Assembly (NCBI RefSeq): GCF_028735875.1
Contig: NZ_CP117834.1
Span: 1,042,001 to 1,106,000, forward strand
DNA from: Shouchella hunanensis
GTDB lineage: Bacteria; Bacillota; Bacilli; Bacillales; Bacillaceae_D
DNA: 64,000 nucleotides
Direction of reading: 5' to 3'
The position numbers and the translations under genes were made by a program. This document shows, piece after piece, positions 7,347 to 46,596 of the stretch; position 1 is the first letter of the stretch, and every line of letters starts with the position of its first letter. The notes under the pieces are model-generated. The model did not search any database, was not told the origin of the DNA, and saw nothing but the letters and a program-made list of their open reading frames with translations.

Positions 7347-7356
7347 CGACACAAAT

Positions 7357-7456: not shown

Positions 7457-7488
7457 TAAATTGTTCTTATCCGAAAGGAGGGGTCTAT

Positions 7489-8360: not shown

Positions 8361-8447
8361 AATAGAAAGAACCTCCTCTTTTAGGTCTACATACTATCAT
8401 TATGCTACAAGACCATTCCTTATTTTCTTTTTAGCTTTATGCTATTT

Positions 8448-8603
8448 TTAGTCCATACTCGGAGAATCATTTACAGCCAAAATGTCTAAATCATCAGTTG
8501 ATAATTTAATACATTCTCGTTCAAATTCATAAAATCCTAGCTTCCCGCACAATTTTACAATTTGATTTATCCTCAATCCAAATTCTTCGGTAGTGGCATT
8601 TAA
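8448..8603 (-). pseudogene. short coding remnant
   Basis: The minus strand is open for 51 codons and reads like real protein (EEFGLRINQIVKLCGKLGFY..., ending ILAVNDSPSMD), but it has no plausible start: an in-frame stop lies at 8604-8606 and no ATG or ribosome site follows. Probably the 3' end of a decayed gene. The rest of 8361-8863 shows only the hairpin at 8717-8739 and the terminator at 8805-8842. Confidence 0.35.
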
Positions 8604-8716
8604 TTAAATCGATTCACTACACCCATACACTCTACTAAAAACAACAGAAGAAACTAGAATATTTAAACAAATTGGACCCTTTCATTACATGTTATTTTAT
8701 CAGAACAAATGGTAAA

Positions 8717-8739
8717 TAACCCTGCCATTAGCAGGGTTA
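8717..8739. terminator. stem-loop in the 8.4-8.9 kb gap
   Basis: Perfect 9-bp stem TAACCCTGC/GCAGGGTTA with a 5-base loop. Neither side has a good T run, so it is only a weak terminator; it could end leftover transcripts in the gap. Confidence 0.4.
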
Positions 8740-8804
8740 AGGGTACGGAATAAAAATCTTTTTCATTTTCCTACTTTTTTGTATAAGTCCCCTCTTGCTT
8801 CACA

Positions 8805-8842
8805 CTAAAAACCCCTCTGACTGTTTCCATAACCAGAGAGGA
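8805..8842 (-). terminator. terminator of the uronide ABC importer operon
   Basis: Minus-strand stem CCTCTCTG/CAGAGGGG (one G-U pair) followed by TTTTT, just after the binding-protein stop at 8864. Confidence 0.8.
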
Positions 8843-8863
8843 ATGATTATTGGTCCTGCTTCA

Positions 8864-10195: not shown

Positions 10196-10206
10196 TTGAA
10201 CTCCTC

Positions 10207-11049: not shown

Positions 11050-11064
11050 CTTCTCCTTCACCTC

Positions 11065-11976: not shown

Positions 11977-12001
11977 TCCTTCCCCTCCTGTTTGCTTCAA
12001 A

Positions 12002-13111: not shown

Positions 13112-13148
13112 GCTCTTCCTCCTCCTTGTCATTGGACGTTCTTTTTTA

Positions 13149-13162
13149 TGATAGCGCTTCCA
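13149..13162 (-). promoter_or_regulatory. cre-like site upstream of the GH88/importer operon
   Basis: TGATAGCGCTTCCA matches TGWAARCGYTWNCW at 13 of 14 positions. It lies 38-51 bases upstream of the GH88 start and 72-85 bases before the divergent AraC gene, so CcpA could repress both. Confidence 0.6.
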
Positions 13163-13233
13163 AATAGATGAAAGTAGTGATACAATGATGAAAAATATTG
13201 TTCTGTTGTTCAAAATGGGAAGGATGATGATGT

Positions 13234-14091
13234 GTGAGTAAACCGTCATTCCAGTTCATACCAGAGCACAAAAAGGCGGTTGTCTGGCATAACAATAAAA
13301 CGAGCTTTCCGATTGAATACTATCACTGGCACCAAGGTTTCGAGCTATTAATTGTCTTTAAAGGCTCTGGAAATGTGATTTTAAATCAGCGTGTGACACC
13401 GATAAAGCCAGGGAGGTTGTTCTTTTTTCAACCGTTTCAATTACACCACGTTGCCACATTAAAGAATGAACCTTATGAACGATCAACCCTTCACTTTGAT
13501 CCACTTCACACCGAGAGACTTCTACACATGTACCCTTCTATGCTTCAACTCTTTTACCACATGCAAAACGATACGTTTGAACATCAGTTCATTGACTTTA
13601 CCCAAGACTTCTCCTATATTCAACAGCTTTGTCAGCTTTACGACGAGAGCTTAGGAACTTGCCCATTAAAAGAGCAAGTCGATCGAGAAAATGTGTTCCT
13701 TATTCAGTTGTTAGGCTATGTCCAACATCAGCTAAAACACCATTCACCCAGCTTACAAACCCGGAATCTCCCCTATGCAGAACGGGTCATGCGCTGGATT
13801 GAAGCGAATCTCTCAAGACCGTTTAAGCTTGATGAACTAGCAGATGAATTATTCTTATCTAAATCGTACATTTCAAAACGTTTTCGTCTAGAGACAGGCA
13901 GTAGCATCACGACTTACTTAACCGCCAGAAGAATGAAAGAAGCCTGCCATTTGTTGCAAACCAGTACCCTATCGTTAGAAGCCATTTGTTCACGAATTGG
14001 CATCACAAATGTCTCTTATTTCATTCAAATGTTCAGACGCGAGCTGCAAACCACTCCCCACCAATATCGACTAAATTTGCAGAAGCAATGA
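13234..14091 (+). CDS. AraC-family regulator (cupin plus two HTH)
   Basis: 285 residues, starting at GTG 13234 with AAGGA nine bases upstream. Residues 20-100 are a cupin-type sugar-sensing domain (YYHWHQGFELLIVFKGSGNVILN, RLFFFQPFQLHHVA). Residues 185-282 hold two helix-turn-helix motifs (FKLDELADELFLSKSYISKRF and SLEAICSRIGITNVSYFIQMF). It is divergent from the GH88/importer operon and followed by the oxidoreductase genes, so it probably activates one or both in response to an uronide. It shares layout with the second AraC regulator at 16452, which suggests an old duplication. Confidence 0.88.
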   Translation: MSKPSFQFIPEHKKAVVWHNNKTSFPIEYYHWHQGFELLIVFKGSGNVILNQRVTPIKPGRLFFFQPFQLHHVATLKNEPYERSTLHFDPLHTERLLHMYPSMLQLFYHMQNDTFEHQFIDFTQDFSYIQQLCQLYDESLGTCPLKEQVDRENVFLIQLLGYVQHQLKHHSPSLQTRNLPYAERVMRWIEANLSRPFKLDELADELFLSKSYISKRFRLETGSSITTYLTARRMKEACHLLQTSTLSLEAICSRIGITNVSYFIQMFRRELQTTPHQYRLNLQKQ

Positions 14092-14193
14092 CAATCTCGT
14101 ATAAATGGATGGACAAAATCAGCAATCGCAAAACAGTTTTTTAATGAGTGTCACCCTAGACTAAACGTAACATGATAAAAAGGAGACGATTGA

Positions 14194-15351
14194 ATGGACA
14201 TTGTACGCATTGGTATTATCGGGCTTGGTAATATGGGTACTTCGCACGCTTCTTACTTGTATCAAAACAAAATTGAAGGCGCTGTCATCGGGGCTTTTCT
14301 AGAGGAACGATCTGGGCGGGTGGCGGAATTACAACAACATTTTGATGCGATTCCTTTTTTTACAGATGAAGACGCCTTCTTCCATTCAGGGTTGTTTGAT
14401 GCTGTATTAATCGCCACTCCTCACTATAGTCACCCTCGCCTCGCTCAAAAAGCATTCGCAAACGGGCTTCACGTTCTTTGCGAGAAACCTTCTGGTGTTT
14501 TCACGAGTGACGTACGTGAAATGAATGAAGCAGCCGCTAAAAGCGGTCTCGTCTTTTCCCTTATGTATAATCAACGAACGAAGCCTATCTATCAAACGTT
14601 GCGAAAGCTAATTCATGACGGTGAACTCGGATCGATTAGGCGAATGAACTGGATCATTACAAACTGGTATCGATCACAAAGTTACTACGATTCAAGTAAC
14701 TGGCGCGCAACTTGGGCAGGAGAAGGTGGTGGTGTCCTTATTAATCAATGCCCCCATCAGCTCGACCTTTGGGGATGGTTACTTCAAATGGAGCCGAAGC
14801 GCCTGCGAGGGTTTTGTTCATTTGGTAAATATCGAGACATTGAGGTGGAAGACGAAGTAACGACCTACCTCGAATACGAAACAGGTGCGACCGGCGTCTT
14901 CATTACGACAACGGCTGAAGCACCCGGAACGAACCGGCTAGAAGTAACCGGAACGAGGGGAAAGGTCGTGATCGAGAACGATGAACTGACGTTTTGGCAG
15001 TTGGAAACAGAGGAACCCGCATTTAACCAATCGTACAAAGGTGGTTTCGGCGCACCAAACAGCCAACTTATTCCGATTGAAGTGAAAGAGGGTGCCACTG
15101 ATCATGAAGGGATTACCCAAAACTTCGTCAATGCGATCCGAACAGGAGAGCCGTTGCTTGCGCCAGGTGAAGAAGGTATTTATGGGTTAACGCTTTCCAA
15201 TGCGATGCAGCTCTCGACTTGGATTGATGATTGGGTGTCCTTTCCACTCGATGAATCGTTGTATGAAAAAGAATTAACAAAGCGCATTCAGCAATCTCAA
15301 GGAAAGAATCATGCTACTGAAACGACATTGGATGTGTCTGGTAGTCATTAA
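14194..15351 (+). CDS. Gfo/Idh/MocA-family oxidoreductase (first)
   Basis: 385 residues. N-terminal Rossmann domain (IGIIGLGNMGTSHASY, residues 5-20) binds NAD(P); CEKPSG (about 97-102) is the usual catalytic-lysine motif, and GGGVLINQCPHQLDLWGWLL (about 181-200) carries the conserved His/Asp region. The C-terminal alpha/beta domain binds the sugar. Members oxidise or reduce sugars, inositols and deoxy-sugars in the cytoplasm; the substrate here is unknown. The start at 14194 follows AAAAGGAG. It is 102 bases after the first AraC gene and 12 bases before the second oxidoreductase, so the two are co-transcribed and perhaps act in sequence. Confidence 0.88.
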   Translation: MDIVRIGIIGLGNMGTSHASYLYQNKIEGAVIGAFLEERSGRVAELQQHFDAIPFFTDEDAFFHSGLFDAVLIATPHYSHPRLAQKAFANGLHVLCEKPSGVFTSDVREMNEAAAKSGLVFSLMYNQRTKPIYQTLRKLIHDGELGSIRRMNWIITNWYRSQSYYDSSNWRATWAGEGGGVLINQCPHQLDLWGWLLQMEPKRLRGFCSFGKYRDIEVEDEVTTYLEYETGATGVFITTTAEAPGTNRLEVTGTRGKVVIENDELTFWQLETEEPAFNQSYKGGFGAPNSQLIPIEVKEGATDHEGITQNFVNAIRTGEPLLAPGEEGIYGLTLSNAMQLSTWIDDWVSFPLDESLYEKELTKRIQQSQGKNHATETTLDVSGSH

Positions 15352-15363
15352 GGAGGGCCTATA

Positions 15364-16455
15364 GTGGGAAAGCAGGACGGCATGACGTATGCACCAAAAG
15401 GAAAACCAAACCAAGTTGTACAGCCAGGGGAATTTTTATTTGCAGCCATCGCTCTTGATCATGGGCATATCTACGGGATGTGTAATGGATTGATGGAAGC
15501 AGGCGGGACACTGGCAGCGGTTTATGACCCAGACCCAGAGAAGGTTGCCCGCTTTACCGACGCGTACCCTAGCGTTCGTGTTGCTTCATCTGAAAACGAG
15601 ATTCTGACGAATTCCTCCATCCACTTGATTGCGGCGGCCGCCATCCCGTCTGAGCGAGCGAACCTTGGCATTCGCTCCATGGAAGCAGGTAAAGATTATT
15701 TTACCGATAAAACCCCTTTTACAAGCCTTGAACAACTCGAATTAGCGAAAGCAGCCGTTAAGCGAACAGGAAGAAAGTATATGGTCTACTTTAGCGAGCG
15801 TCTTCACGTGGAATCCGCAGTCTATGCAGGTGAACTCATTTCGAATGGAGCGATTGGTGATGTCATTCAAGTGACAGGCTTTGGTCCTCATCGACTTCAA
15901 GCAGACAATCGACCTGAATGGTTTTTTCAAAAAGACAACTATGGTGGCATCCTCTGTGACATTGGTAGCCATCAGATCGAGCAGTTTTTGTTTTATGCGG
16001 GTTGCTCAGACGCTCAGATTCTTCAGAGTAAGGTTGCGAATTACGCAAACCCATCCTTTCCCGAATTAGAAGACTATGGAGACGCCACATTAGTTGGGAA
16101 TACAGGGGCAACTCAATTTTTTAAAGTGGATTGGCACACGCCTGATGGGTTAAGCACATGGGGCGACGGTCGAACGTTTATTACAGGAACAAAAGGGACG
16201 ATTGAACTCCGCAAGTATGTGGATGTCGCGCGCGAGAAGAGTGGGGATCACCTTTACTTAGTCAATCAAGATGGTGAGCACCATTTGTCGCTGCAAGGAA
16301 AAGTCGGTTATCCGTTTTTTGGTGAACTCATTCTAGACTGCATCCATAGGACGGAGCGAGCCATGACCCAAGCACACGCTTTTAAAGCAGCAGAACTCTG
16401 TTTACTTGCGCAACAACAAGCCGTTCATCTTACCTCAAGGGAGAATGTCCGATGA
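15364..16455 (+). CDS. Gfo/Idh/MocA-family oxidoreductase (second)
   Basis: 363 residues with a GTG start at 15364 behind AAGGAGGG. It is the divergent subtype in which the nucleotide motif is degenerate (FLFAAIALDHGHIYGMCNGL) and the usual EKP is DKTPF, followed by KRTGRKYMVYFSERLHVE and YGGILCDIGSHQIEQFL. The C-terminal domain has the usual FITGTKGTIELRKY strand. Because both the glycine-rich loop and EKP motif differ from the first enzyme, the substrate or even the reaction may differ. It overlaps the second AraC gene by four bases (ATGA), so the three genes form one operon. Confidence 0.85.
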   Translation: MGKQDGMTYAPKGKPNQVVQPGEFLFAAIALDHGHIYGMCNGLMEAGGTLAAVYDPDPEKVARFTDAYPSVRVASSENEILTNSSIHLIAAAAIPSERANLGIRSMEAGKDYFTDKTPFTSLEQLELAKAAVKRTGRKYMVYFSERLHVESAVYAGELISNGAIGDVIQVTGFGPHRLQADNRPEWFFQKDNYGGILCDIGSHQIEQFLFYAGCSDAQILQSKVANYANPSFPELEDYGDATLVGNTGATQFFKVDWHTPDGLSTWGDGRTFITGTKGTIELRKYVDVAREKSGDHLYLVNQDGEHHLSLQGKVGYPFFGELILDCIHRTERAMTQAHAFKAAELCLLAQQQAVHLTSRENVR

Positions 16456-33129: not shown

Positions 33130-34176
33130 ATGAGTCAAAGGAAAGTTACCATGCAGGTCATTGCCGATACTGTAGGTGTGTCTAAATACGTAGTGTCAAA
33201 AACATTAAATAATAAGCTTGGTGTAAGCGAGGCGACTAGACAGAAAATTTTATTCACCGCAAAACAACTCGGCTATTCTAAAGATGGTCCCTCAGAAGGT
33301 CCAAGCCTACCATTAGAGACAGAAATCGAAAATGGGTATATTCTAGTTGTGCTGCCAAACTATGAATATCAAAGCATCTCTTACACATATTGGGGGACTG
33401 TATTCCAAGGCATATCCCTTCATATCCAAAGTAAAAAAGCCGGTATGATTGTCATTACAAGTGAAATGGATTTAACCAAAAAAGTAGATGTGGCAAATTT
33501 AATTGGCATCATCACAGTCGGAACGCTAGATGAGCAAACCTTACTTGCGTTATCCACTTACAATCTACCTATTGTTACATTAGATCACGAAGCTAGGATT
33601 ATTCGTACCGACAGCATCTTCATGGATAACCTCGGCGGTATTGAGCGGATGACCGATCATTTAATCGGTTTGGGACATAAGCAGTTACTGTTTATCGGTA
33701 ATATCCATTATTCCCAAAGCTTCTACGAGCGTTGGACCGGTTTTCGCAATTCGTTAGAGAAAGCAGATATAGCGATTGCACAAGGCAACCAAAAGGTTCT
33801 AACGATTCCTTACAACGATGATATGGAAGTCGCTCTCCAACAACACTTTGAAGAACTCGGAATTCATTCTACTCATTTCCCAACAGCTTTCGTTTGCGCA
33901 AACGATCACATTGCAAGACGTATGATTGTACTATTAGAAAAGAACGGCTTGGCATGCCCGAAGGATGTTTCAGTCACTGGCTTTGACTCCCTTGAAGAAG
34001 ACAAGCATCTCTCACCTACACTCACAACCGTTCAAGTATTAAAACAAGTGATGGGCCGCCGAGCAGTCGACCGCCTTATCTGGCGTGCTAAAAATAGAGA
34101 CTACCCACCTGAAAAGCTCTTAATAGTCGGAGATATCGCTTTTAACGAATCAATAGACACACCAAAAAAACGATGA
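33130..34176 (+). CDS. LacI-family transcriptional regulator
   Basis: 348 residues. N-terminal helix-turn-helix and hinge (VTMQVIADTVGVSKYVVSKTLNNKLGVSEATRQKILFTAKQLGY), followed by a periplasmic-binding-type effector domain (GTVFQGISLHIQSKKAG, VTLDHEARIIRTDSIFMDNLGG, TAFVCANDHIARRMI, SVTGFDSLEEDKHLSPTLTTVQV). It likely represses the importer-glycosidase operon that starts 123 bases after its stop, because both promoters share CTAACA repeats. It has its own terminator. The effector is unknown, probably the imported sugar. Confidence 0.92.
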   Translation: MSQRKVTMQVIADTVGVSKYVVSKTLNNKLGVSEATRQKILFTAKQLGYSKDGPSEGPSLPLETEIENGYILVVLPNYEYQSISYTYWGTVFQGISLHIQSKKAGMIVITSEMDLTKKVDVANLIGIITVGTLDEQTLLALSTYNLPIVTLDHEARIIRTDSIFMDNLGGIERMTDHLIGLGHKQLLFIGNIHYSQSFYERWTGFRNSLEKADIAIAQGNQKVLTIPYNDDMEVALQQHFEELGIHSTHFPTAFVCANDHIARRMIVLLEKNGLACPKDVSVTGFDSLEEDKHLSPTLTTVQVLKQVMGRRAVDRLIWRAKNRDYPPEKLLIVGDIAFNESIDTPKKR

Positions 34177-34208: not shown

Positions 34209-34222
34209 ATAAAGCGTTTACA
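34209..34222 (+). promoter_or_regulatory. cre-like site before the LacI-controlled operon
   Basis: The core AAAGCGTTTACA fits the cre consensus except the first two bases (12 of 14). It lies about 80 bases upstream of the binding-protein start. Confidence 0.4.
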
Positions 34223-34254
34223 TATTGATTGCGAAGTGATATGTTTATCAACAA

Positions 34255-34299: not shown

Positions 34300-35565
34300 A
34301 TGGTTCGTTCTGTACTTAAATCTTTAGTGGCGATTGGAAGTATCGGTTTGGTGGCGGCTTGTTCTTCCGGCTCTAGTTCAAGTGAGTCCACTGGAGGAGG
34401 AGACATTACATTAACAATGTGGCTTTGGCCTGGGATGGGGTTTGCGGAAAAAGCTGCCCAATACGAAGAAGAAAACCCAGGAATCAACATTAATATTCAA
34501 GAGGCTGAATACGCTGATGCACACCAAAACCTGATTACCGCACTTGCTGCTGGTTCTGGTGCTCCTGATATTTCTGGTGTAGATGAAGGGTACCTTGAGC
34601 GTATTAAAGAAAGCAGTCACTTGTTCTACGATCTATCCGATTATGGGGCTGCCGATTTAGAAGGCGACTATCTCGATTGGAAATGGAACCAAGCCTCTTC
34701 TGATGACGGTTCTGTTATCGGTATTCCTACCGATATCGGTCCAATGGCCATGGCCTATCGTGTGGATTTATTCGAAGAAGCAGGCTTACCTACAGATCCA
34801 GATGACGTTGCTGAAGCAATGGGTACATGGGACGATTACATCGAAGCTGGTAAGCAGTTAAAAGAAGAGACAGGTAGCTTCATGTTTAGCGATGTAGCAG
34901 ATATGTATTCTGCGATTCGTGAGCAAGGGGATAAACAATATTTTGAAACAGACGGCACCTTAATCATTGAAGATAGCCCACAAATTTTAAAAGCGTGGGA
35001 TAAGTCGATTGAAGCAATGGACATTCAAGCCAATATTGAACGTCAGACACCTGAATGGGGTGCAGCCATTGCAAATGGTGATTTTGCGACGGTTTTCCTT
35101 CCACCTTGGATGCTGCAAAATATTAAAAACGACGCGCCTGATACTGCTGGTTTATGGGACATCGCGTTAATGCCTGAAGGCTCAGGGAACTGGGGCGGCT
35201 CTTTCTTAACAATTCCGTCTCAAAGCGATCATCCAGAAGAAGCCTATGCGTTTATCACTTGGCTCATGTCGCCTGATAATCAATTAGATATTTTTGAAGC
35301 AAACGGGAACTTTCCTTCCACTCCTGGAATTTATGATGAACCAGCTGTGAAAGAACTCGATGACGGCTTCTTTATTCGAGATGATATTGGCGCTATTTTT
35401 GCAGAGGCCGCCACCCTTGTTAAAGATGTGTATCGAGCTCCAGATACCGCTCCGATTAACACGATTATGCAAGATGCTCTTGGAACTGTAGCCGATGGTG
35501 TAGCAGAACCTGAAGCGGCATGGGACAGTGCCATTCAAGAAGTGAACCGTCAAACGTCGCGTTAG
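34300..35565 (+). CDS. ABC importer sugar-binding lipoprotein (CUT1, family 1)
   Basis: 421 residues. Lipobox VAAC (Cys about 21) followed by a Ser/Gly linker. Family-1 fold: LTMWLWPGMGFAEKAAQYEEENPGI, GVDEGYLERIKESSHLFYDLSDYG, IGIPTDIGPMAMAYRVDLFEEAGLP, SFLTIPSQSDHPEEAYAFITWL. Start at 34300 after AGGAGGGG. First gene of an operon with two permeases and a large glycosidase; ligand probably an oligosaccharide that the glycosidase then cuts. Its message ends in a hairpin before the permease genes. Confidence 0.92.
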   Translation: MVRSVLKSLVAIGSIGLVAACSSGSSSSESTGGGDITLTMWLWPGMGFAEKAAQYEEENPGININIQEAEYADAHQNLITALAAGSGAPDISGVDEGYLERIKESSHLFYDLSDYGAADLEGDYLDWKWNQASSDDGSVIGIPTDIGPMAMAYRVDLFEEAGLPTDPDDVAEAMGTWDDYIEAGKQLKEETGSFMFSDVADMYSAIREQGDKQYFETDGTLIIEDSPQILKAWDKSIEAMDIQANIERQTPEWGAAIANGDFATVFLPPWMLQNIKNDAPDTAGLWDIALMPEGSGNWGGSFLTIPSQSDHPEEAYAFITWLMSPDNQLDIFEANGNFPSTPGIYDEPAVKELDDGFFIRDDIGAIFAEAATLVKDVYRAPDTAPINTIMQDALGTVADGVAEPEAAWDSAIQEVNRQTSR

Positions 35566-35605: not shown

Positions 35606-35635
35606 TATGAACATTCATCAGAAGGGATGGACTCT

Positions 35636-36568
35636 ATGAATACAGAAGTGCGCCAGCAACACCCACATACACCACAGAAAAAACAGAAGAAATATAATCA
35701 ACGAACGAGAGATCGAATTTCCGGCTACCTTTACATTTCTCCTTTTTTCCTCTTATTTGGTGTTTTCGGGATGTTCCCACTTATTTTCACAGCCTATTTG
35801 TCTTTTCACCGTTGGAACATTCTCGGTGAAAGAGAGTTTATTGGTTTGTCAAATTACATCGGTCTGTTCACAAACGATCCACTGTTTTGGAAAGCAGTCG
35901 GAAATACGTTTAGCATATGGGCGCTGTCCACCATTCCGCAGCTCTTTGTCGCCTTAGTGCTTGCGTTTATTTTGAACCAAGCGTTTTTAAAAGGAAAAAG
36001 CTTCTTTCGCTTAAGTATTTTTATGCCAAACGTAACGTCGATTGTCGCCGTGGCCATCGTCTTCTCTGCTATCTTTGGTACCCAATACGGGATTATCAAT
36101 TATGCCCTTAGCTTAGTTGGCCTTGACCCTATTAACTGGAAGGGTTCTTACTTTGGCACACATGTGGCGATCTCTTCCATGGTGATGTGGCGCTGGGTCG
36201 GCTATAACACCATCATTTATTTAGCTGGTCTTCAAAGCATTTCGAAAGACTTGTACGAGGCCGCTACGATTGATGGAGCCAATAAAATTCAACAGTTCTT
36301 TTATATTACGATTCCAATGATTCGACCCATTATTATTTTCACTGTACTCCTTTCCTCCATTGGAGGCATGCAAGTCTTTACTGAGCCGTTGCTCTTTGGA
36401 GTTGGTTCTGATTCACAAGGCTTAACGATGACTCTTTATCTTTACCAGGAAGCATTTGAACGATTCTCCTTTGGCTATGCTGCCGCCATTGCATGGGTTC
36501 TGTTTTTAATTATTATGATTGTCTCACTCATCAATCTCATCGTTACACGTCGTATCAAATCAACTTAA
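35636..36568 (+). CDS. ABC importer permease (MalF type)
   Basis: 310 residues from ATG 35636 with GAAGGGATGG upstream; an ATG three codons earlier is part of that site. A basic tail of about 35 residues precedes six membrane segments. ATPase-contact loop DLYEAATIDGANKIQQFFYITIPM (about 203-226). The N-terminal YLYISPFFLLFGVFGMFPLIFTAYLSFHRWNI is typical of CUT1. Pairs with the MalG-type permease 22 bases downstream. Confidence 0.92.
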   Translation: MNTEVRQQHPHTPQKKQKKYNQRTRDRISGYLYISPFFLLFGVFGMFPLIFTAYLSFHRWNILGEREFIGLSNYIGLFTNDPLFWKAVGNTFSIWALSTIPQLFVALVLAFILNQAFLKGKSFFRLSIFMPNVTSIVAVAIVFSAIFGTQYGIINYALSLVGLDPINWKGSYFGTHVAISSMVMWRWVGYNTIIYLAGLQSISKDLYEAATIDGANKIQQFFYITIPMIRPIIIFTVLLSSIGGMQVFTEPLLFGVGSDSQGLTMTLYLYQEAFERFSFGYAAAIAWVLFLIIMIVSLINLIVTRRIKST

Positions 36569-36590
36569 AAAAGAAGGGAGACAGCTTGAA

Positions 36591-37427
36591 ATGAAAGAAG
36601 TTGGTCAAAAGAAACTACCCAAGATCTTCTTGTATCTTTTCTTAATTGTGAGTTCACTCGTATCTTTATTTCCGTTCTACTGGATGTTCGTCATTGGGTC
36701 CAACTCCACGACGTCCGTCAATCAATTTCCACCTGCCATGATTCCAGGAACACAGTTTTTTGAAAACGCCAGAAACGTATTTGAGCGAATCGATTTCTTT
36801 GGCTCGATGTTAAATTCCTTTATTATCTCTGGAACCGTCACGTTGTCTGTGTTGTTTTTTTGTTCCTTGGCTGGGTTCGCATTTGCAAAATTGAATTTTG
36901 AAGGCAAAAATATGCTGTTCGTTTTTTTACTTGCCACCATGATGATTCCACCACAGCTTGGGCTTATTCCTTCTTTTATGATCATTAGTCAATTAGGCTG
37001 GATTGATACCCTTCAAGCGGTCATTGTTCCTGCTATGGTTAGTGCATTCGGTGTGTTTTGGATGCGTCAATATATCTCTTCCGCCATTCCTGATGAGCTT
37101 TTGGAAGCAGCACGGATGGATGGGTGTAGTACGTTTCGCACGTATTGGAATATTGTTCTCCCAACAGTCAAACCTGGTCTTGCTACACTCGGAATTGTCA
37201 CGTTTATGAATACATGGAACGATTTTTTATGGCCCCTTGTCGTATTAAAGGACCAGAGTGTTCACACCATCCAGATTGCCTTACGGACATTAAACGATGT
37301 GTTTTATACCGATTATTCGATGATTCTGGCAGGGACGTTTATGGCCACTGTTCCTATCTTAATTGTCTTTCTCTTATTTAGCCGCTACTTCATCGCTGGC
37401 TTAACAGAAGGCGCTGTTAAAAACTAA
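36591..37427 (+). CDS. ABC importer permease (MalG type)
   Basis: 278 residues from ATG 36591 with AAGGGAG upstream; a longer frame to 36519 overlaps the previous gene. Six membrane segments, loop ELLEAARMDGCSTFRTYWNIVLPT (about 170-194), and the terminal RYFIAGLTEGAVKN. It completes the translocation pore with the upstream permease. The glycosidase gene starts 16 bases later. Confidence 0.92.
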   Translation: MKEVGQKKLPKIFLYLFLIVSSLVSLFPFYWMFVIGSNSTTSVNQFPPAMIPGTQFFENARNVFERIDFFGSMLNSFIISGTVTLSVLFFCSLAGFAFAKLNFEGKNMLFVFLLATMMIPPQLGLIPSFMIISQLGWIDTLQAVIVPAMVSAFGVFWMRQYISSAIPDELLEAARMDGCSTFRTYWNIVLPTVKPGLATLGIVTFMNTWNDFLWPLVVLKDQSVHTIQIALRTLNDVFYTDYSMILAGTFMATVPILIVFLLFSRYFIAGLTEGAVKN

Positions 37428-37443: not shown

Positions 37444-40400
37444 ATGTCTTATTTATTTTTTTACGATTCCACATTTCCATTTGATGGGGTGCGTCCATCA
37501 TCTACTCAATTAGCCGCACTTACTGATGTTGTTGATACAAGCGAGATGGACGAAGCACTAAATAGCGGTCGGTATGATACATTTATTAATTTACATGGTT
37601 CCTATTTTCCTAAAGATACATGGCCGTCTCTGCTGCGTTTTCTTGAAACAGGCGGCGGGCTTGTACATATTGGCGATATTCCATTCCGATATCCTGTCTA
37701 CAAAGACAATCATGAATGGAACATTGAAGTGGAACAAACCGCTTATCATCAGCAACTTCAAATACATGAAGCGTTGGCGGTTCAGACGGATCAAGTGCAA
37801 ATGCTCGTACCATCAAGCGACCGCCCGCTCTTACAGCCATTTGTTAAGACCATTAGCATTCAACCGACCTATGGGTTTGTGCTTCACGTGACGAAACAGG
37901 ATGATCATCCATCAGAGAACGGATCAAGCGGACCGATGGATGCGCACATTTACCCTCTTCTTGTAGGAAAGTCAGCTGATAACCGGAACATTTCAGCCCC
38001 TGTCGTCTTAATTGAAAATACGAAAGGCTCCTTTGCAGGCGGACGGTGGATTTTCTTTAATCAACGAATCGATTCATTGTTTTGGGAACAAGGGATTGAT
38101 TTACTAAACAAACTTGCTTGGTATACTGCTGAAGGGGTTACGGAGATATGGATTAAACCGGGTTATGCCAGTTATTATCCGCAAGAAGTGCCGACTCTTA
38201 CGATTCAATTACAAAGTCTTTCTTTGCATCATCGTCCTGATCAAGAGAAAGAGTGGACGCTTCACTTACGTGTGAATAAGGATCAGGATTGTTTGTACGA
38301 AGACGTCATCCATGTTACACAATCCCTGCATTTGTCTTTACTTAAAAGAACACTCCCTTTTCAAGTTCAAGAAGGATTTTACACTGTCGACATGCAAGCG
38401 ACATCCACCGCAGGAGAAAAGATTGAACTCAATCAAGGTTTTTGGGGGTTTTCAGAAACATTGCTTGCATCTGGTACGCCGTTAAAAGCCAATCGGGATT
38501 ATTTTGAGAAAGACGGAAAACCGTTTCCAATTGTTGGGATGACCTATATGACGTCAGATGTAGCACGCAAATTTCTATTCCTACCCAATGCTCACGTCTG
38601 GGATCGGGATATGGAACAGATGAAGAACGCCGGTATTAATCATATTCGTTCAGGAATTTGGACAGCATGGCGCCAAATTATGTTTGTAGACGGACACCCG
38701 TCTGAAGAAGTGCTGCGTGCCATCGATGCCTTTGTACTAACTGCGAAAAAGCATGAGCTTGATCTGTGCTTCACCTTTTTTGCCTTCACCCCTGAGACGT
38801 GGGAAGGAAGCAATCCATACTTAGATCCACGAAGCCTTGAAGCGCAGAAACGATTTATCGCAGCGATAGCGTCGCGCTATACAGAAGCGACTCATCTACA
38901 CTGGGATTTAATTAACGAGCCTTCTATGTTTGATCCAAAGCGTATCTTTTCCGGACCACGTTCGGCACGCGACCCTTATGAGATAAAGGCTTTCCAAGAT
39001 TGGACCCGGGAAAAATACGGAACGATCCGTCGTGTACAGGAAGCATGGAATTATTCATCAGCAGAACTGCCTGATTTCCATTACATCGCAACACCGGAAC
39101 AGGCAGAGATGAATATGGATGTTCAAGATATGCGTAACCCGAGTAAAAACCTTATTTGGCTCGACTATACGTTATTTACGATGGATATGCATAACCGATG
39201 GGTATCCGATTTATCAACCGCATTGCAAGCAATGAACCCAAATCGATTAATAACAGTTGGTCAAGATGAGGCATTATGTTCACAACGACCTACTCCATTC
39301 TTCTATGCCTCAACCGTTGACTATACAACGAATCACACTTGGTGGCAGCAAGATCATCTAGTATGGGATGGTATCTTTACGAAAACAAATGGAAAACCAA
39401 ATCTTATCCAAGAAACAGGCATTATGTATCTAGAGCAACCCGACGGATTAGCGAAGCGGACTGAAGAAGAATTACGCACTATTTTAGAGCGCAAGTATGC
39501 CTATGCTTTCTCTACTGGTGGAGCAGGAGCCGTACAGTGGCTGTGGAATACCAACTTCTACATGGACAACGTGAATGAGTCCAATATCGGAGCGCTACGT
39601 GCTGACGGAACGGAAAAACCAGAAGCAGACGTATCCTATGACTTTGGCGCTTTTATGGAGGTGTCTAAATCGCTCTTTGTCAATCGAACTCTTGAAGAAG
39701 TCGCAGTGGTTTACCCGTATTCAAACGATTTTTCTACACGAAAACTCGCCTTTGCCGCAACGACTAAGGCTGTACGAACGCTATCCTATGGATTAAATAC
39801 CCACGTAAGAGGCTTGAGTGAATATCATTTACATGACTTGCTGGAACATCCACCTAAACTCGTTGTCGTGCCAAGCGCCCATAATTTTAGTGATGCAGCA
39901 TTTGAACAGCTCATCACCTACACGCAACAAGGAGGTACACTCCTCTTCTCTGGACCGTTACGACTGAATGCAAGCTGGAAACATTCGGAGCGACTAAAAA
40001 AGGAGATCGGGAAAACGACACGGCAAAACGTTTTACGTGAAGAAGTGCTAACGATAAATGGCACGTCTTACGCAGTTAGCTTTGGCGCAAGACGCATTGC
40101 AGAGCTTGTAAAAGAAAAGGTTAATGGTTTGAACAAAAACGAAGTGACATCGCTCCCTCTTGGACAAGGAACCTTTATTTGGAGTCCCTTACCAGTTGAG
40201 TTAAACGATCGGTCGGAAGTGCTTGAAACGCTTTATCGCTATGCGCTTCAACAAGCCGATGTGACGAATGAACTTATTTGGCATAAAGGCGGAGATAACC
40301 CAGGCGTCTACGGTCGCAGACTTTCATATAAAGAAGGAGACCTGTTCATTTTCGTCTCTGAATTTGCTGAAGATGTAGAGATTGAAGTAACGAACCCTCA

Positions 40401-40536
40401 TACAGGTAGAACCTATGCTTTTATCCTCGAACAAGAACGGTCTGTTCTTTACCATACTGATTTAACCGGTACTGTCGTGAACAGCTATCGAAACGTTACC
40501 ATTAACCAACGAAAAACAACCGTCCATTCATCGTGA
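37444..40536 (+). CDS. large cytoplasmic glycosidase, clan GH-A, with GATase-like flanking domains
   Basis: 1030 residues, no signal peptide. About 1-240: class I glutamine-amidotransferase-like fold (INLHGSYFPKDTWPSLLRFLETGGGLVHIGD), without a clear catalytic Cys. About 240-345: beta-sandwich (EIWIKPGYASYYPQEVPTLTIQL). About 345-760: TIM barrel with acid/base Glu492 in LINEPSMFD and nucleophile Glu657 in LIQETGIM, the Asn-Glu-Pro and Glu-Thr-Gly pattern of GH5/GH42-like enzymes. About 770-900: a second GATase-like domain (LVVVPSAHNFSDAAFEQLITYTQQGGTLLFSG), as in the beta-galactosidase trimerisation domain. The last 100 residues form a beta domain. Last gene of the LacI-controlled importer operon, so it should act on the imported sugar. 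Specificity unknown; beta-galactosidase, -mannosidase or -glucosidase are all possible. Confidence 0.8.
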   Translation: MSYLFFYDSTFPFDGVRPSSTQLAALTDVVDTSEMDEALNSGRYDTFINLHGSYFPKDTWPSLLRFLETGGGLVHIGDIPFRYPVYKDNHEWNIEVEQTAYHQQLQIHEALAVQTDQVQMLVPSSDRPLLQPFVKTISIQPTYGFVLHVTKQDDHPSENGSSGPMDAHIYPLLVGKSADNRNISAPVVLIENTKGSFAGGRWIFFNQRIDSLFWEQGIDLLNKLAWYTAEGVTEIWIKPGYASYYPQEVPTLTIQLQSLSLHHRPDQEKEWTLHLRVNKDQDCLYEDVIHVTQSLHLSLLKRTLPFQVQEGFYTVDMQATSTAGEKIELNQGFWGFSETLLASGTPLKANRDYFEKDGKPFPIVGMTYMTSDVARKFLFLPNAHVWDRDMEQMKNAGINHIRSGIWTAWRQIMFVDGHPSEEVLRAIDAFVLTAKKHELDLCFTFFAFTPETWEGSNPYLDPRSLEAQKRFIAAIASRYTEATHLHWDLINEPSMFDPKRIFSGPRSARDPYEIKAFQDWTREKYGTIRRVQEAWNYSSAELPDFHYIATPEQAEMNMDVQDMRNPSKNLIWLDYTLFTMDMHNRWVSDLSTALQAMNPNRLITVGQDEALCSQRPTPFFYASTVDYTTNHTWWQQDHLVWDGIFTKTNGKPNLIQETGIMYLEQPDGLAKRTEEELRTILERKYAYAFSTGGAGAVQWLWNTNFYMDNVNESNIGALRADGTEKPEADVSYDFGAFMEVSKSLFVNRTLEEVAVVYPYSNDFSTRKLAFAATTKAVRTLSYGLNTHVRGLSEYHLHDLLEHPPKLVVVPSAHNFSDAAFEQLITYTQQGGTLLFSGPLRLNASWKHSERLKKEIGKTTRQNVLREEVLTINGTSYAVSFGARRIAELVKEKVNGLNKNEVTSLPLGQGTFIWSPLPVELNDRSEVLETLYRYALQQADVTNELIWHKGGDNPGVYGRRLSYKEGDLFIFVSEFAEDVEIEVTNPHTGRTYAFILEQERSVLYHTDLTGTVVNSYRNVTINQRKTTVHSS

Positions 40537-40566: not shown

Positions 40567-40597
40567 ACGAGACCATATCAGATGGTCTCGTTTTTTG
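40567..40597 (+). terminator. terminator of the LacI-controlled glycosidase operon
   Basis: 10-bp stem ACGAGACCAT/ATGGTCTCGT with a 5-base loop and six T. Confidence 0.92.
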
Positions 40598-41236: not shown

Positions 41237-44098
41237 CTATCCATCAAATCTCGGAATCTCCAATACGAGATTATAAGATCCAATTTCTTGATAAAGAGTA
41301 TACATGTTATTCACTTGTTTAAACGCCCAGCCAATATCCGTCGCATATTGATGAGTAGGTCGACCATTCTCAATTAGCCCATCAATGTTCCAACGCATTT
41401 TATACAGCGTATTTTGTCCTGATTTTACATAGTTATTACCAATGAAACTTGCTCCACCAACAATCGCTTTATATGGAGAATCCCAACCTTCATTGTAAGC
41501 ACGCTCTAGTCCACACTCGTTTGGACATGCATCAACAGCACCAATTCCAAACATATTGTAGACAATTGTACCATTGTACTCATTTCCTGATGCGAGAAAC
41601 GATGTGCCATGACCTGTTTCAAGTAGTGCATGAGAAAGCAAATAAATTTCATTCACACCGTGCATTTGTCCAGCATCAATAAATGCTTGACCTTGACCGC
41701 TTAGCGTTCCCTTTCCTTGCAAATACCGATTTAGCACCTCTGCGGTTACACCACTTGATTGTGTTAAATCAAGAAACTGAAATTTTTGCCTCTCGTCATT
41801 TATGAAGTTATTGGGATTCATGTAGTACGCGATATCCTCTACGGATGCTCGAACCCAGTGAAGTTGGTACCATCCATTTTGCGGATTGCCACGAACCGTT
41901 ACTCTTGTATCTCGCGTTAAACGGTCAACGACTGCATAAGCAGTACTTGGTCCACTACGTACATTTAACACGTCTGTATTTACATAGTAGTAATTCCCAG
42001 CACTATTATAAGAAATATACTCTGCCGAAACAAATTGACGATACGTGTCCGTTACAGCGTAAACCCCATGCTGACGCTGAGCGGCTTCTTCTAGGGAGAT
42101 GTTATAGGACTTATATGTGTGCTCGTTAACATGGGCCGCCTTTATCCAAACTTGCTGGCCATTCAACATACCGCGATACCAGACCTCATTTCCAACTTGT
42201 TCAGTTAAGTGAACGTCAAAGCGTGCGTTTTTATGACTACTGAGATCAAACAGCTTGTTTGCACTACCGCCCCAGGCTGTGTTAAATGCAGCACCTTCCC
42301 CACTAACGTAACGCACTTTACTTGTTCGGTCAATTTGTACATGTGGTGCTGAAACGATCTCAGATTCGCGTACCCAACCAATAAGACCATTAACCGCACT
42401 TGCCTGCGTACTTAGAAGATAATACAATTCGCCGTTTACTGTTGCTTGTTGTTTTATAAAGAATGCACGGTTAAGATACGATCGGTTGTCAACCGTCCCA
42501 CTCTGCCTAAGATCAGTAAAGATAGTTGTATTCATTGAGAGCATTCCTTTTCGACTTACCGACGAAAGCTCAGTTCCTGCTGGATTCAAATGGTTACTAT
42601 GAATCCACATACGTTCACCATTTACATCCCCACGATACCAAATGTTATTCCCTATTGATTCCGTTAAATGGACTTGGAATGTTGCTCCTGCTAGATCACT
42701 AAGTTGAGATTTTACAAGATTTTGTTTTCCTCCCCAAGCCGTATTATAAGATACTCCTCGACCACTAAGGGTAAATGTTTTTGAATCACGATCTACAGTG
42801 CGATGCTCATGGGATGTGACTTCACTCGCTCGCGCCCAACCAATAACACCATTCACAGCGGAAGCCTGGGTACTTAAATGAAGATACGTTTCACCGTTAT
42901 AAATTGCTTGTTCCTTTACAAAAAACGAGCGGTCTTGATGCGCCACATTACTAATTGGATTCGCATCACCTAGTTCCTTATAAATAAGAGTATTGCTTCG
43001 GATTTGCGCCTTTTTACTTACTGCTTCAATATCTTCCACGATCGGATTGGTATGCAAATGATTGCTGTGAATCCACATACGCTGACCATTCACGTCGCCT
43101 CGATACCAAATATTATTTCCAATCGACTCCGTTAAATGAACATCGAATCGTTCGCCTCTTAGTCCACTTAACGTTGTTATAAGCTGCGTCGTACCTCCCC
43201 AAGCTGTTGTATATGAAACACCTCTACCAGAAAGATAGAATGTCTTATTTTCACGATCAACGGTTTGGTGCGTATGCGACGTCAGTTCAGACGCTTTTGC
43301 CCAACCAACGACACCAGATGTCGCTGAAGCTTGTGTACTAATGAGTAAATAAAGATCCCCATTATACGTGGCTTCTTGTTTAACAAAAAAAGTTCGATTT
43401 AAATGAGGCGTTGGATCAATTGTCTCGTTATCGCCAAGATTTCTTACAACCGTTGTGTTGCTACGGACTTGTGCTTTCTTACTCGTTGCATTAGCTAGAG
43501 GGTCTACAATTAAGGCAAACGGTTGAATGTTTTCATCCTCTTCCATTGATTTGTCGCTTGGATCTTCTGCTTCAACCTCTTCTGTTCCCTCTTCCGTCGA
43601 TTCTACAGCCTCTTCTTCGACTGTTTCTTCTTGCTCTTCTTCTACTACTTTTTCACGGTTCTCTTCTTCTTCAAACAGTTCTTCTTCAATTGGAAATTCT
43701 TCAACGTCTTCCTCAATCTCAACGTTAGGTGCTGTAACGCCTTCTGTTGGATCAAGATCATCTTCAGGGTTAAAGACTTCACCCTCTTCTAGATCTTCTT
43801 CTTTCACTAAAGAAAGTTGTTCATTTATGTAATGATCTAGTTGTCTTAGGGCTTCTTCTTCTGCCACATCATAGTTTTCTAAAATGACTGATACGTATTG
43901 CTCTCTAGCTAATTCGTCGTTTTGAATTGCGTTAAACAAACAATCATCCTTAAATAAGTCAGCAAACGTTTCTTCACGATCCTGTAAACATTTCTCAATT
44001 GACAGTTGTTTTGTTTCCTCAGCGGCTTGCATTAAATAAGGAAAGAAAAGATTCGTCGTTAATAGTGCGATTAAAAAAACCAAACCAATTTTTTTCAT
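41237..44098 (-). CDS. secreted beta-N-acetylglucosaminidase autolysin (LytD-like)
   Basis: 953 residues from ATG 44098 with GAGGAG upstream; the 14-codon extension has no site. Signal peptide MKKIGLVFLIALLTT... (cleavage near AAEE). About 100-210 is a very acidic Glu-rich linker. About 215-660 holds three repeats of about 150 residues, each with two SH3/GW-like halves (VGWAKASELTSH, RGVSYTTAWGG, NIWYRGDVNGQRMWIHSNHL) for cell-wall binding. An SH3b-like unit (NVRSGPSTAYAVVDRL) follows. The C-terminal glucosaminidase domain has Glu827 in HALLETGHGTS. It cuts the glycan backbone of peptidoglycan. Co-directional and 68 bases after the amidase gene. Confidence 0.92.
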   Translation of the reverse strand: MKKIGLVFLIALLTTNLFFPYLMQAAEETKQLSIEKCLQDREETFADLFKDDCLFNAIQNDELAREQYVSVILENYDVAEEEALRQLDHYINEQLSLVKEEDLEEGEVFNPEDDLDPTEGVTAPNVEIEEDVEEFPIEEELFEEEENREKVVEEEQEETVEEEAVESTEEGTEEVEAEDPSDKSMEEDENIQPFALIVDPLANATSKKAQVRSNTTVVRNLGDNETIDPTPHLNRTFFVKQEATYNGDLYLLISTQASATSGVVGWAKASELTSHTHQTVDRENKTFYLSGRGVSYTTAWGGTTQLITTLSGLRGERFDVHLTESIGNNIWYRGDVNGQRMWIHSNHLHTNPIVEDIEAVSKKAQIRSNTLIYKELGDANPISNVAHQDRSFFVKEQAIYNGETYLHLSTQASAVNGVIGWARASEVTSHEHRTVDRDSKTFTLSGRGVSYNTAWGGKQNLVKSQLSDLAGATFQVHLTESIGNNIWYRGDVNGERMWIHSNHLNPAGTELSSVSRKGMLSMNTTIFTDLRQSGTVDNRSYLNRAFFIKQQATVNGELYYLLSTQASAVNGLIGWVRESEIVSAPHVQIDRTSKVRYVSGEGAAFNTAWGGSANKLFDLSSHKNARFDVHLTEQVGNEVWYRGMLNGQQVWIKAAHVNEHTYKSYNISLEEAAQRQHGVYAVTDTYRQFVSAEYISYNSAGNYYYVNTDVLNVRSGPSTAYAVVDRLTRDTRVTVRGNPQNGWYQLHWVRASVEDIAYYMNPNNFINDERQKFQFLDLTQSSGVTAEVLNRYLQGKGTLSGQGQAFIDAGQMHGVNEIYLLSHALLETGHGTSFLASGNEYNGTIVYNMFGIGAVDACPNECGLERAYNEGWDSPYKAIVGGASFIGNNYVKSGQNTLYKMRWNIDGLIENGRPTHQYATDIGWAFKQVNNMYTLYQEIGSYNLVLEIPRFDG

Positions 44099-44166
44099 CT
44101 TTTTCTCCTCTTCTATTTTGTCCGAAAAAGAGAGCAACAACGTATTACGCTGATGCTCCTTTTTCC

Positions 44167-46596
44167 TTACCTAAAGTATTCGCCTACCCCAAGCAAAATG
44201 CCTCTTGCGGCACGATCGTGATAAACCGTTTGACGAAGCTTTGCAGCATCACCAGCATGGTCCATAAATCCAACCTCTAAGAGAATACTTGGTATTCTTG
44301 TTTCCCGCACAACGTGGAAGTTCCCTTCCGCAACGCGACGGTAGTTCGTATTTACTTGACCAACAACTGCATTTTGTACTGCATGAGCGAGACGTTGACT
44401 GTTCGCACTCTGATGACGAGTGTGGTAGAACGTTTCTGTTCCATTTGCCCGACCATCAAATGCATTATTGTGAATGCTAATAAAGATGTCTCCACCTGAT
44501 TCATTTGCTACCTTCGCACGATCCGCTAATGTCACAAACACATCTGTTGAACGCGTCATAATAACTCGGGCTCCAGCTGCTTCAAGTAACGGTTTTGTAC
44601 GTAAAGCCATGCTTAAGTTTAAGTCTTTTTCAACCATGCCTCCTGCACGTGCTCCACCATCAGTGCCGCCATGTCCAGCATCAAGAACAATCGTTTTGCC
44701 ATCTAAACTCGTCACATCGTTTCGATGGATAAAGCCATTCTTCCATTCTCCATCAATTCGCACAGTTGCTGTATACCATTCACTGTTTAGGGTCTTAAAT
44801 TTAAGTGTACTTCCAGTAGAATATGAACGTAGCACAGAAGAATTTCTAGATGTACTTGTATACACATTCACGTTTTGCAATGCTACTCCGTGCTTCGTTT
44901 CTTGCGCATTTGTCGGAATTAAATCACCTGCTGGTATAAAGCCTTGAACAGCACGGCCATTCAAAATAACTGTAGCGCTATGCCATGAGCTATTAAATGG
45001 ACGATATGTTAGTACTTGCCCTGCATTGTAACTTCGTAGAACTTCTGAGTTCCGGGAGGGCTCACCATATACAGCTGTGTTTCGTTGCGCAATTTGTTGT
45101 TGCTGCGGACTCCGTTCGTCCATAACGTCTGACTTCGCAATATAACCTGTCTCCCACTTGCCATTAATCATGACTGTAGCTTGGTACCAGTTGCTAGTTA
45201 ACGTTCGTACCTTAAGAGCATGGTTAAAGGTATAGCTGCGATACGTAGTGGCAGATTTAGAAGGGCTAGTGTACACGTTTGTTGGTTGTTTACCAGCAAA
45301 AACATTCCGCTCCTCTTGCGCATCTGTCAACAGAACAATATCACTTTTATGAATAAATCCATTTTTCCATTCACCATTTATTCGAACAACAGCAGAATAC
45401 CAATTTTCGGTATACGGCCTAAACTTCAGCATTTGTCCTTCATCATAGTTTCGTAAAACAGTTGAAGTACGAGACGTTTGACTATATATAGATACTCGGT
45501 CTTTTGCATAACCCTCAAGTTGTTCGGGAACTTCATCAACAGGACGCAAATCATCTGCATGTATAAATCCTTGAGTAGCCGTCCCATTCAAAATGACAGT
45601 TGCACTGAACCATTCTGAAGTAAAAGGTCTGTATTTTAGAATTTGTCCTTCGTTGTAAGAACGTAAGATTGTGGAATTGCGAGAAACATCACTGTAAACG
45701 GCCGTTCTATTTTGCTTCGCAACCCCTTCTAACTGTGCTGCCCTTGCAAACTCAACATCTGTATGAGCAATATACCCAGTTTCCCACACACCATCAATTC
45801 TCACTGTAGCTTCAAACCACGAATCATTGTACTCTCTTACTTTTAAGGAATGTCCAAACGAATAACTTCGATAAGTAGAAGCTGATTGGGATGGACTTGT
45901 GTATACATAAGTTGGCTGCTTACCTGCAAAGACATGATGTTCTTGCTGTTCAGCTACACGTGCCAGTTCTTCTTCCTTTTTCGTAGATTCAGAGTTTTCG
46001 TGTGTAACGTCTTCTTCTTGAACCTCTTCTGGTGAGTCTGAAGCTTCTTCCTCTACTGCTTCTTCCGGTGCTTCTGAGGTTTCTTCCTCTACTGCTTCTT
46101 CCGGTGCTTCTGAAGTTTCTTCCTCTACTGCTTCTTCCGGTGCTTCTGAAGTTTCTTCCTCTATTGCTTCTTCTGGTGTCTCTGAGGTTTCTTCCTCTAA
46201 TAATTGGTCTTTATGTAAATAATACTCTCTTGGTGTAAAAGCATCGTCACTTCGCCAATGTAGAAAATCTTTTACATCTTCCTCGAAGACGATGTAATTG
46301 CTATCGATGTAACCAGTCATTTCCTCTTCTAACTCATTTGTATATGTAAGCAAGAAATGATCTTCTTCAAATGCTAAAACTGTCGCCTCTGTTCCCTCTT
46401 CAATTGTAGAAAGTGCTACTGCTTGATCACGGCCTTCGTAGACATTTATGACATCCTCTGTATTCCCAAATACATAGACTGTCTCCAGATCACCACTGGT
46501 CCCTTGTAAAGGGTTTGCTTGAGCTGTCATTGTCGTCATTTGTAGAATAAGCATCGTAATGAGTAAATAGACAGTAGCTGAATACAGCTTTTTCAT
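44167..46596 (-). CDS. secreted N-acetylmuramoyl-L-alanine amidase (Amidase_3)
   Basis: 809 residues. Signal peptide (MKKLYSATVYLLITMLIL..., cleavage near AQAN). About 25-120 is an SH3-like region. About 133-215 is acidic with five copies of a 12-residue repeat (EEETSEAPEEAV type). About 225-630 holds six SH3-like wall-binding units (VYTSPSQSASTYRSYSFG..., W-T/N-G-FIH pattern). The C-terminal Amidase_3 domain (634-809) has zinc ligands His642 (DAGHGG), Glu656 and His709 (SIHNN) and catalytic Glu774 (LLEVGF). It cleaves the bond between muramic acid and the peptide stem. With the glucosaminidase it resembles the LytC/LytD autolysin pair. A WalR-type box lies upstream. Confidence 0.95.
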   Translation of the reverse strand: MKKLYSATVYLLITMLILQMTTMTAQANPLQGTSGDLETVYVFGNTEDVINVYEGRDQAVALSTIEEGTEATVLAFEEDHFLLTYTNELEEEMTGYIDSNYIVFEEDVKDFLHWRSDDAFTPREYYLHKDQLLEEETSETPEEAIEEETSEAPEEAVEEETSEAPEEAVEEETSEAPEEAVEEEASDSPEEVQEEDVTHENSESTKKEEELARVAEQQEHHVFAGKQPTYVYTSPSQSASTYRSYSFGHSLKVREYNDSWFEATVRIDGVWETGYIAHTDVEFARAAQLEGVAKQNRTAVYSDVSRNSTILRSYNEGQILKYRPFTSEWFSATVILNGTATQGFIHADDLRPVDEVPEQLEGYAKDRVSIYSQTSRTSTVLRNYDEGQMLKFRPYTENWYSAVVRINGEWKNGFIHKSDIVLLTDAQEERNVFAGKQPTNVYTSPSKSATTYRSYTFNHALKVRTLTSNWYQATVMINGKWETGYIAKSDVMDERSPQQQQIAQRNTAVYGEPSRNSEVLRSYNAGQVLTYRPFNSSWHSATVILNGRAVQGFIPAGDLIPTNAQETKHGVALQNVNVYTSTSRNSSVLRSYSTGSTLKFKTLNSEWYTATVRIDGEWKNGFIHRNDVTSLDGKTIVLDAGHGGTDGGARAGGMVEKDLNLSMALRTKPLLEAAGARVIMTRSTDVFVTLADRAKVANESGGDIFISIHNNAFDGRANGTETFYHTRHQSANSQRLAHAVQNAVVGQVNTNYRRVAEGNFHVVRETRIPSILLEVGFMDHAGDAAKLRQTVYHDRAARGILLGVGEYFR
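46023..46198 (-). repeat. 36-bp tandem repeat array inside the amidase gene
   Basis: About five 36-bp units, the central three nearly identical, encode the 12-residue acidic repeat EEETSEAPEEAV. Such in-frame repeats expand or shrink by slippage or recombination, so linker length may vary between strains. Confidence 0.85.

Follow-up and report, generated by a model that had tools for sequence, protein, structure and literature searches.

Within a 64,000-nucleotide stretch of the Shouchella hunanensis genome (contig NZ_CP117834.1, positions 1,042,001 to 1,106,000; hereafter the window), a gene at 37444..40536 on the plus strand encodes a 1030-residue enzyme of glycoside hydrolase (GH) clan GH-A. 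From the gene context of its relatives, its sequence and a predicted structure, we consider it probably a beta-mannosidase of some kind. The more specific assignment that we favour, with some caution, draws in addition on analogy to characterised systems: an intracellular retaining exo-beta-D-mannosidase that would cut the Man-beta-1,4-GlcNAc bond (mannose linked to N-acetylglucosamine) of the N-glycan core. In the proposed pathway, an N-glycan would be imported, alpha-mannosidases would strip its branches, and the enzyme would then release the core beta-1,4-mannose from GlcNAc (in Man-beta-1,4-GlcNAc itself or its form extended by a second GlcNAc), Glu492 serving as acid/base and Glu657 as nucleophile in a retaining mechanism. 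We infer the beta-mannoside specificity, the N-glycan substrate and a trimeric state. A first-pass annotation of the DNA had proposed a clan GH-A enzyme that was a good candidate for a new specificity; its clan, two GATase-like domains, catalytic pair, cellular location and operon stood up, whereas a new specificity is not the reading that fits best, as the context of the relatives points to known beta-mannoside cleavage.

Gene context in relatives

Gene context, not structure, decides for mannose, because structurally the enzyme ties with GH42. We counted neighbours in the loci of the closest 80 of 175 confirmed relatives, typing GH families by Pfam on representatives; contig ends cut some of the loci, so the counts are lower bounds. 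A GH125 alpha-1,6-mannosidase gene lies directly upstream (within 600 bases, same strand) in 69/80 loci. Directly downstream (within 1500 bases), a GH38 alpha-mannosidase gene is found in 66/80, and the same GH38 occurs anywhere in the locus in 71/80. GH3 is present in 22 of the 80 loci and GH20, by Pfam, in 5. In Paenibacillus and Cohnella the operon comprises a two-component system, a solute-binding protein (SBP), two permeases, GH125, the enzyme and GH38. A subset also carries a second GH38 and a GH3, which form open reading frame (ORF) clusters 8 and 9 (23/92 and 22/92 loci); this count was preferred to one of 56/80 for the second GH38, which mixes both GH38 kinds and was left unused. The ORF clustering found the enzyme in 87/92 loci: an antisense ORF was kept instead in L020, L026, L040 and L071, and L091 is a weak GH42-like match.

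GH125 and GH38 enzymes remove alpha-mannose and GH20 enzymes remove GlcNAc; the Man-beta-1,4-GlcNAc bond remains in every N-glycan core. The typed operon genes showed no other family of beta-mannosidases. We assign the candidate beta-mannosidase to this bond because it is, by its clan, the sole partner in the common operon that would be capable of acting on a beta-mannoside. A comparable locus of C. acnes, with GH38, GH5_18 and GH20, has been proposed to dismantle the Man3GlcNAc2 core, and its GH5_18 enzyme was shown to cut Man-GlcNAc (excerpts of PMC6160142). The families named for the core beta-mannosidase step in the excerpted text of a 2023 review are GH2, GH5_18 and GH130 (PMC10154615). 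The enzyme would then probably catalyse a known reaction from a family outside those that these excerpts name.

The linkage to mannosidases is also found in a rearranged form. In genome G206, from another family of the same order (L129, L132 and L133; C15:238000-285000), the enzyme gene is divergent from a GH38-GH125-GH20-GH2-GH38-permeases-SBP-histidine kinase cluster. That locus adjoins genes for mannose-6-phosphate isomerase (ManA) and a ROK kinase; its GH2 is of the beta-galactosidase type, and its SBP shares 50% identity with that of Paenibacillus. This rearranged yet intact linkage outweighs mere shared synteny. In our tree, which held 80 of 87 rows (L001 and L082-L087 were omitted as repeats), the G206 enzyme clusters with the Shouchella enzymes at 81 in the Shimodaira-Hasegawa-like approximate likelihood ratio test; its branch is long and marked as uncertain. 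Alignment A1 excludes L040, which has a stop codon in the matched range; alignments A2 and A3 hold 33 and 27 rows.

Elsewhere in the family the context varies. On comparison with the representatives, no mannosidase was found in three outgroup loci (two in G037, one in G077). Among the Gracilibacillus-like loci of G271 and G094, a GH38 lies nearby in G094 only. In Paenibacillus filicis (L006:8767-15889) the enzyme gene stands beside a divergent LacI gene, an SBP and a GH4 enzyme with no GH125 or GH38, which is another type of context. The G206 glycan locus is also next to the N-acetylmuramic acid (MurNAc) genes AnmK and NamZ.

We considered and rejected two further roles. Xanthan was considered since GH38 and GH3 also serve xanthan, and among the typed neighbours (representatives only) there was no polysaccharide lyase PL8, GH88 or GH9. 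The xanthan cluster of P. taichungensis I5 contains GH9, PL8, GH88, GH38 and GH92; the GH125 of that strain is found in a separate cluster, together with GH76 (excerpts of PMC12827396). Yeast alpha-mannan would fit GH125 and GH38, but neither a clan GH-A beta-glycosidase nor a GH20 would have a clear task there.

Domain architecture and catalytic residues

We built an AlphaFold2 model of the whole enzyme on 37 rows, assigned its secondary structure with DSSP and aligned it structurally with VIA and Foldseek. The model reached a predicted local distance difference test score (pLDDT) of 85.2 and a predicted template modelling score (pTM) of 0.85, and its domains follow the order given in the first-pass annotation, with one difference: where three beta domains had been counted, we see two separate ones.

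An N-terminal GATase-like (amidotransferase-like) domain of the GH42-trimerisation/ThuA-like kind (residues 1-230; 37444..38133; this and all features of the gene below are on the plus strand) aligns with the GATase-like/trimerisation domain of GH42 and with a ThuA-like protein (VIA Z 11-12 over 179-191 residues). An immunoglobulin (Ig)-like beta sandwich follows (residues 232-337; 38137..38454), with VIA Z up to 13.2 over ~100 residues against sandwich domains of transglutaminase, dextranase and GH2. Modelled alone, residues 1-350 reach a pLDDT of 91.8. The catalytic (beta/alpha)8 barrel (residues ~345-745; 38476..39678) is supported by Pfam, the model, VIA and a barrel profile. It is followed by a C-terminal GATase-like (GH42M-like) domain (residues ~748-940; 39685..40263) and a C-terminal beta domain (residues ~943-1025; 40270..40518), the latter delimited by DSSP and VIA. 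In the C-terminal region, Pfam gives matches to DUF4350, GLMA_2nd and GH42M, all under the cut-off, and VIA alignments of the whole model with GH42 and GH164 run from ~343 to 1009, covering the second GATase-like domain. These GH42/GH164-type C-terminal domains suggest that the enzyme may form trimers. BLASTP, the sole comparison made between the two GATase-like domains, found no likeness of the kind expected from internal duplication.

In a separate Foldseek search, the N-terminal module (residues 1-350; 37444-38493) matched first the oligosaccharyltransferase subunit chains 6s7t_G and 6ezn_G (E ~1e-8, template modelling score ~0.34), with which it has a GATase-like plus beta arrangement in common, perhaps for glycan binding.

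The barrel strands lie at residues 363-367, 400-405, 440-445, 485-488, 603-604, 628-632, 653-657 and 695-698. Glu492 thus falls after beta-4, within the predicted acid/base motif Asn491-Glu492 (38914..38919), and Glu657, the predicted nucleophile (39412..39414), ends beta-7, which is the clan GH-A arrangement. Asn491, Glu492 and Glu657 are identical in 87/87 aligned ORFs, and the columns of Arg402, His631, Trp633 and Trp699 are at least 99% identical. The fold and this invariance agree with the catalytic pair that had been predicted from the letters of the sequence.

The residue pattern of mannose-active GH5 enzymes, as listed in excerpts of PMC6160142, is present: Arg at beta-2, Asn-Glu after beta-4, HxW/Y at beta-6, Glu at beta-7 and Trp at beta-8. 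By strand position, Arg402, Asn491-Glu492, His631/Trp633, Glu657 and Trp699 correspond to Arg41, Asn139-Glu140, His215/Trp217, Glu259 and Trp295 of CaMan5_18. The GH5-type HxW is His631-Thr632-Trp633 (39334..39342).

Structural neighbours

The closest structures by VIA include the GH5_7 mannanase 1rh9 (Z 27.7; 302 residues, 2.9 Å), the GH164 beta-mannosidase 6t6g (Z 27.5; 562 residues, 3.9 Å), RmMan5B (Z 26.9), CmMan5A (Z 25.9) and Op5Man5 (Z 25.6; 482 residues). Four GH5_18 entries (9y4v, 7lqx, 6mpc and 7lr8) score Z ~24, one of which, 7lr8, holds bound Man-beta-1,4-GlcNAc. Against the PDB, the barrel profile finds the mannanases 3ziz (2.7e-6) and 1qno (3.4e-5) and the exo-mannosidase 4lyp (0.0068), and its best sequences are GH5_7 mannanases and GH42 enzymes in alternation. 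Structure alone is compatible with mannose or galactose and does not decide between them, as far as the model goes.

Each neighbour resembles the enzyme in part. GH5_7 enzymes (1rh9, 3ziz, RmMan5B, CmMan5A) are the top barrel matches by both sequence profile and VIA, but the alignment is limited to the barrel (~300 residues, 17-19% identity). GH5_18 enzymes (CaMan5_18, BlMan5B) share the proposed reaction, the catalytic residue pattern, an alignment at Z ~24 over 350 residues and a locus that also contains GH38, GH20 and importer genes. In contrast, CaMan5 is described in excerpts of PMC8233224 as a bare, non-modular barrel, whereas the enzyme has 1030 residues and four further domains, and 9y4v matches the barrel profile at no better than E 0.4. 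The GH164 enzyme Bs164 (6t6g), a retaining beta-mannosidase, has a clan GH-A barrel with a GATase-like/trimerisation domain and a beta domain, but only 12% identity in the structural alignment and nothing like the 340-residue N-terminal module. GH164 sits in Bacteroidetes loci that are read as beta-mannan, not N-glycan, systems (excerpts of PMC7105311). Op5Man5 combines a GH5-like barrel with a GATase-like domain, but it has 594 residues, lacks the N-terminal module and is specific for manno-oligosaccharides (excerpts of PMC8233224). GH42 beta-galactosidases have the same order of barrel, GATase-like trimerisation domain and beta domain (Z 24-26.6 over ~580 residues); they differ in their ~15% identity, partial Pfam coverage, missing N-terminal module and a sharp gap in family scores. 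GH164 and Op5Man5, both beta-mannosidases with GH42-like domains, provide a precedent for the scaffold (excerpts of PMC7105311 and PMC8233224).

Family placement

Profile searches placed the enzyme in no clear characterised family, as the first-pass annotation had anticipated. Pfam gave two weak passes, GH42 (PF02449; 43.2 bits against a cut-off of 21, model positions 110-236 only, 127 of 376) and GH5 (PF00150; 25.2 bits against 23.5). The NCBIfam search returned no match, and PDB sequence searches returned weak, partial matches only, nearest to GH5_7 and GH42. The GH42 profile is matched by 37/37 family members and that of GH5 by 36/37 at E 0.01.

With a 37-row profile of the family, we found members in 29 of 398 Bacilli genomes, the best row per genome scoring 1375-1831 bits. 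One member gene, in G1004, is split, and its second piece scores 279.7 bits. Five further Bacilli genomes contain weak matches only (at most 22.5 bits), in ORFs of 675-697 residues, the size of GH42 enzymes; between 279.7 and 22.5 bits, no score occurs among the 398 genomes. Because of this sharp gap, the family appears, by its sequences, to be a compact and sharply bounded family of Bacilli rather than a stray GH42. In a sample of the phylum, 6/398 genomes match at 1e-10, every one in the same class, and in a sample of the order 11/298 match at 1e-3, including one weak 17-bit match. The enzyme is 91% identical to one from another Shouchella, 73-74% to those of Alkalicoccobacillus and 51-57% to those of Paenibacillaceae and other Bacilli; the S. 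miscanthi AK13 copy is 100% identical across the whole match. A plasmid collection held one partial relative. The family may be an unclassified one of clan GH-A, frequent in Paenibacillaceae and sporadic in Bacillaceae; searches of the open-licence PMC literature listed nothing on it.

These data also bear on a different reading, in which the enzyme is a beta-galactosidase or alpha-L-arabinopyranosidase of the GH42 type that carries an additional module at its N-terminus. The GH42 profile matches, a GH42-like segment following the acid/base and the overall GH42 architecture speak for it. We nevertheless regard it as very unlikely, given the short stretch of the GH42 model that is matched, the drop from members to GH42-sized proteins, the GH5-type HxW after beta-6 and operon partners that target alpha-mannose.

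Weighing the substrate assignment

Several observations weigh against an N-glycan-core beta-mannosidase. The GH42 structure 5e9a ties with the mannose-active neighbours (VIA Z 26.6) over more residues (590), and the best Pfam match is GH42. Foldseek, in E-value order, lists the beta-1,2-glucosyltransferase 7vkw first, then GH164 and GH42. Neither GH125 nor GH38 is present in 9/80 loci (L002-L007, L009, L016 and L033), including those of Shouchella and Alkalicoccobacillus, and the GH125-linked Paenibacillus and Cohnella rows form one 66-row clade that excludes the window enzyme. Pfam finds no alpha-mannosidase gene in the window operon; GH125, GH20, GH85 and GH130 were undetected in the window's genome; and the window SBP resembles cellobiose binders (nearest PDB entry 8bfy). 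Most of the doubt comes from GH42, which ties structurally, and from the window operon, which lacks alpha-mannosidases.

The Foldseek result, together with the weak GLMA_2nd similarity, which points to exo-glucosaminidases, raises another retaining beta-glycosidase of the same pathways, such as a beta-glucosidase, exo-glucosaminidase or transglycosylase. Both resemblances fall within the common GH42-like architecture, and where GH20 is present it accounts for the removal of GlcNAc; we hold this reading to be as improbable as the GH42 one.

A beta-mannosidase for beta-1,4-manno-oligosaccharides of plant mannan (mannobiose and longer), taken up by a CebE-like transporter, would account for the likeness of the SBP to a cellobiose binder and for an operon free of alpha-mannosidases. 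It would also suit the mannan-active GH5_7 enzymes at the top of the barrel matches and the manno-oligosaccharide enzymes GH164 and Op5Man5. The GH125 and GH38 genes that adjoin the enzyme gene in most relatives would be useless on beta-mannan, however, and GH26 and GH130 were undetected in the window's genome, where no search aimed at GH5 or GH113 mannanases was made. We think this reading unlikely and retain the core Man-beta-1,4-GlcNAc bond as the preferred target.

For the Shouchella enzyme, whose own operon holds only the importer, LacI and the enzyme, the substrate is one that we infer. The importer would likely take up a small disaccharide with a beta-1,4 linkage, either Man-GlcNAc or a manno-disaccharide, and the enzyme would then split it. 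The window's genome does contain one GH38, in a separate locus (L101; G000:C1:2222000-2240000, ORFs 3149-16054) with permeases, an SBP, a GH29 fucosidase, a GH3 and a regulator. Its GH38 and GH3 are 51% and 47% identical to the Paenibacillus proteins of clusters 8 and 9. Judging by its genes, this locus could strip plant-type N-glycans; the set of GH29, GH38 and GH3 fits these glycans, whose core beta-1,2-xylose a GH3 enzyme of Bacteroides massiliensis has been proven to remove (excerpts of PMC9522356).

The window operon and its surroundings

The ORF at 37444..40536 is stop-free, starts with ATG and encodes a protein of 117.9 kDa with an isoelectric point of 5.45; it is present exactly as first annotated, an ordinary conserved gene. 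No signal peptide was seen by eye, and the enzyme is predicted to be cytoplasmic, as had been proposed. It is the last gene of a plus-strand operon whose LacI regulator and CUT1 importer, also noted before, are confirmed by Pfam: a LacI-family regulator (33130..34176), an extracellular solute-binding lipoprotein (34300..35565; closest PDB chains 8bfy, cellobiose-binding, and 5ixp) and two CUT1-type permeases of an ATP-binding cassette (ABC) importer (35627..36568 and 36519..37427). The second permease probably starts 3' of the listed TTG. Ahead of the SBP gene lies a likely promoter, TTTACA-17-TATGTT (34217..34245, plus strand), whose -35 box is within AAGCGTTTACA, an element that we take to resemble catabolite-responsive element (cre)/LacI operators. 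The promoter scan by itself was uninformative (16 found against 16.8 expected), and the weight rests on conservation of the element, which is kept in 5/5 intergenic regions compared. Directly 3' of the enzyme gene, a hairpin resembling a terminator is followed by a run of T (40567..40591, plus strand).

On the minus strand at 41237-46596, the window encodes two large, probably secreted proteins that contain SH3-like repeats. Judged by eye, the C-terminal domain is glucosaminidase-like in one and amidase-like in the other, making them candidate cell-wall hydrolases.

Implications

It seems to us an even call whether this family adds to GH2, GH5_18 and GH130 one more way of cutting the core bond, with its N-terminal module of GATase-like and Ig-like domains, which GH42 and GH164 lack, aiding glycan recognition or shaping the oligomer. 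If the assignment is true, the family would be another case, after GH164 and Op5Man5, of a GH42-like scaffold serving beta-mannose, and would provide a new tool enzyme to cleave Man-GlcNAc. A substrate would be named for a conserved operon of dozens of Paenibacillus and Cohnella species, and proteins that Pfam would annotate as 'beta-galactosidase' or 'cellulase' would account for the core step that has been missing from N-glycan utilisation in a large group of soil Bacilli.

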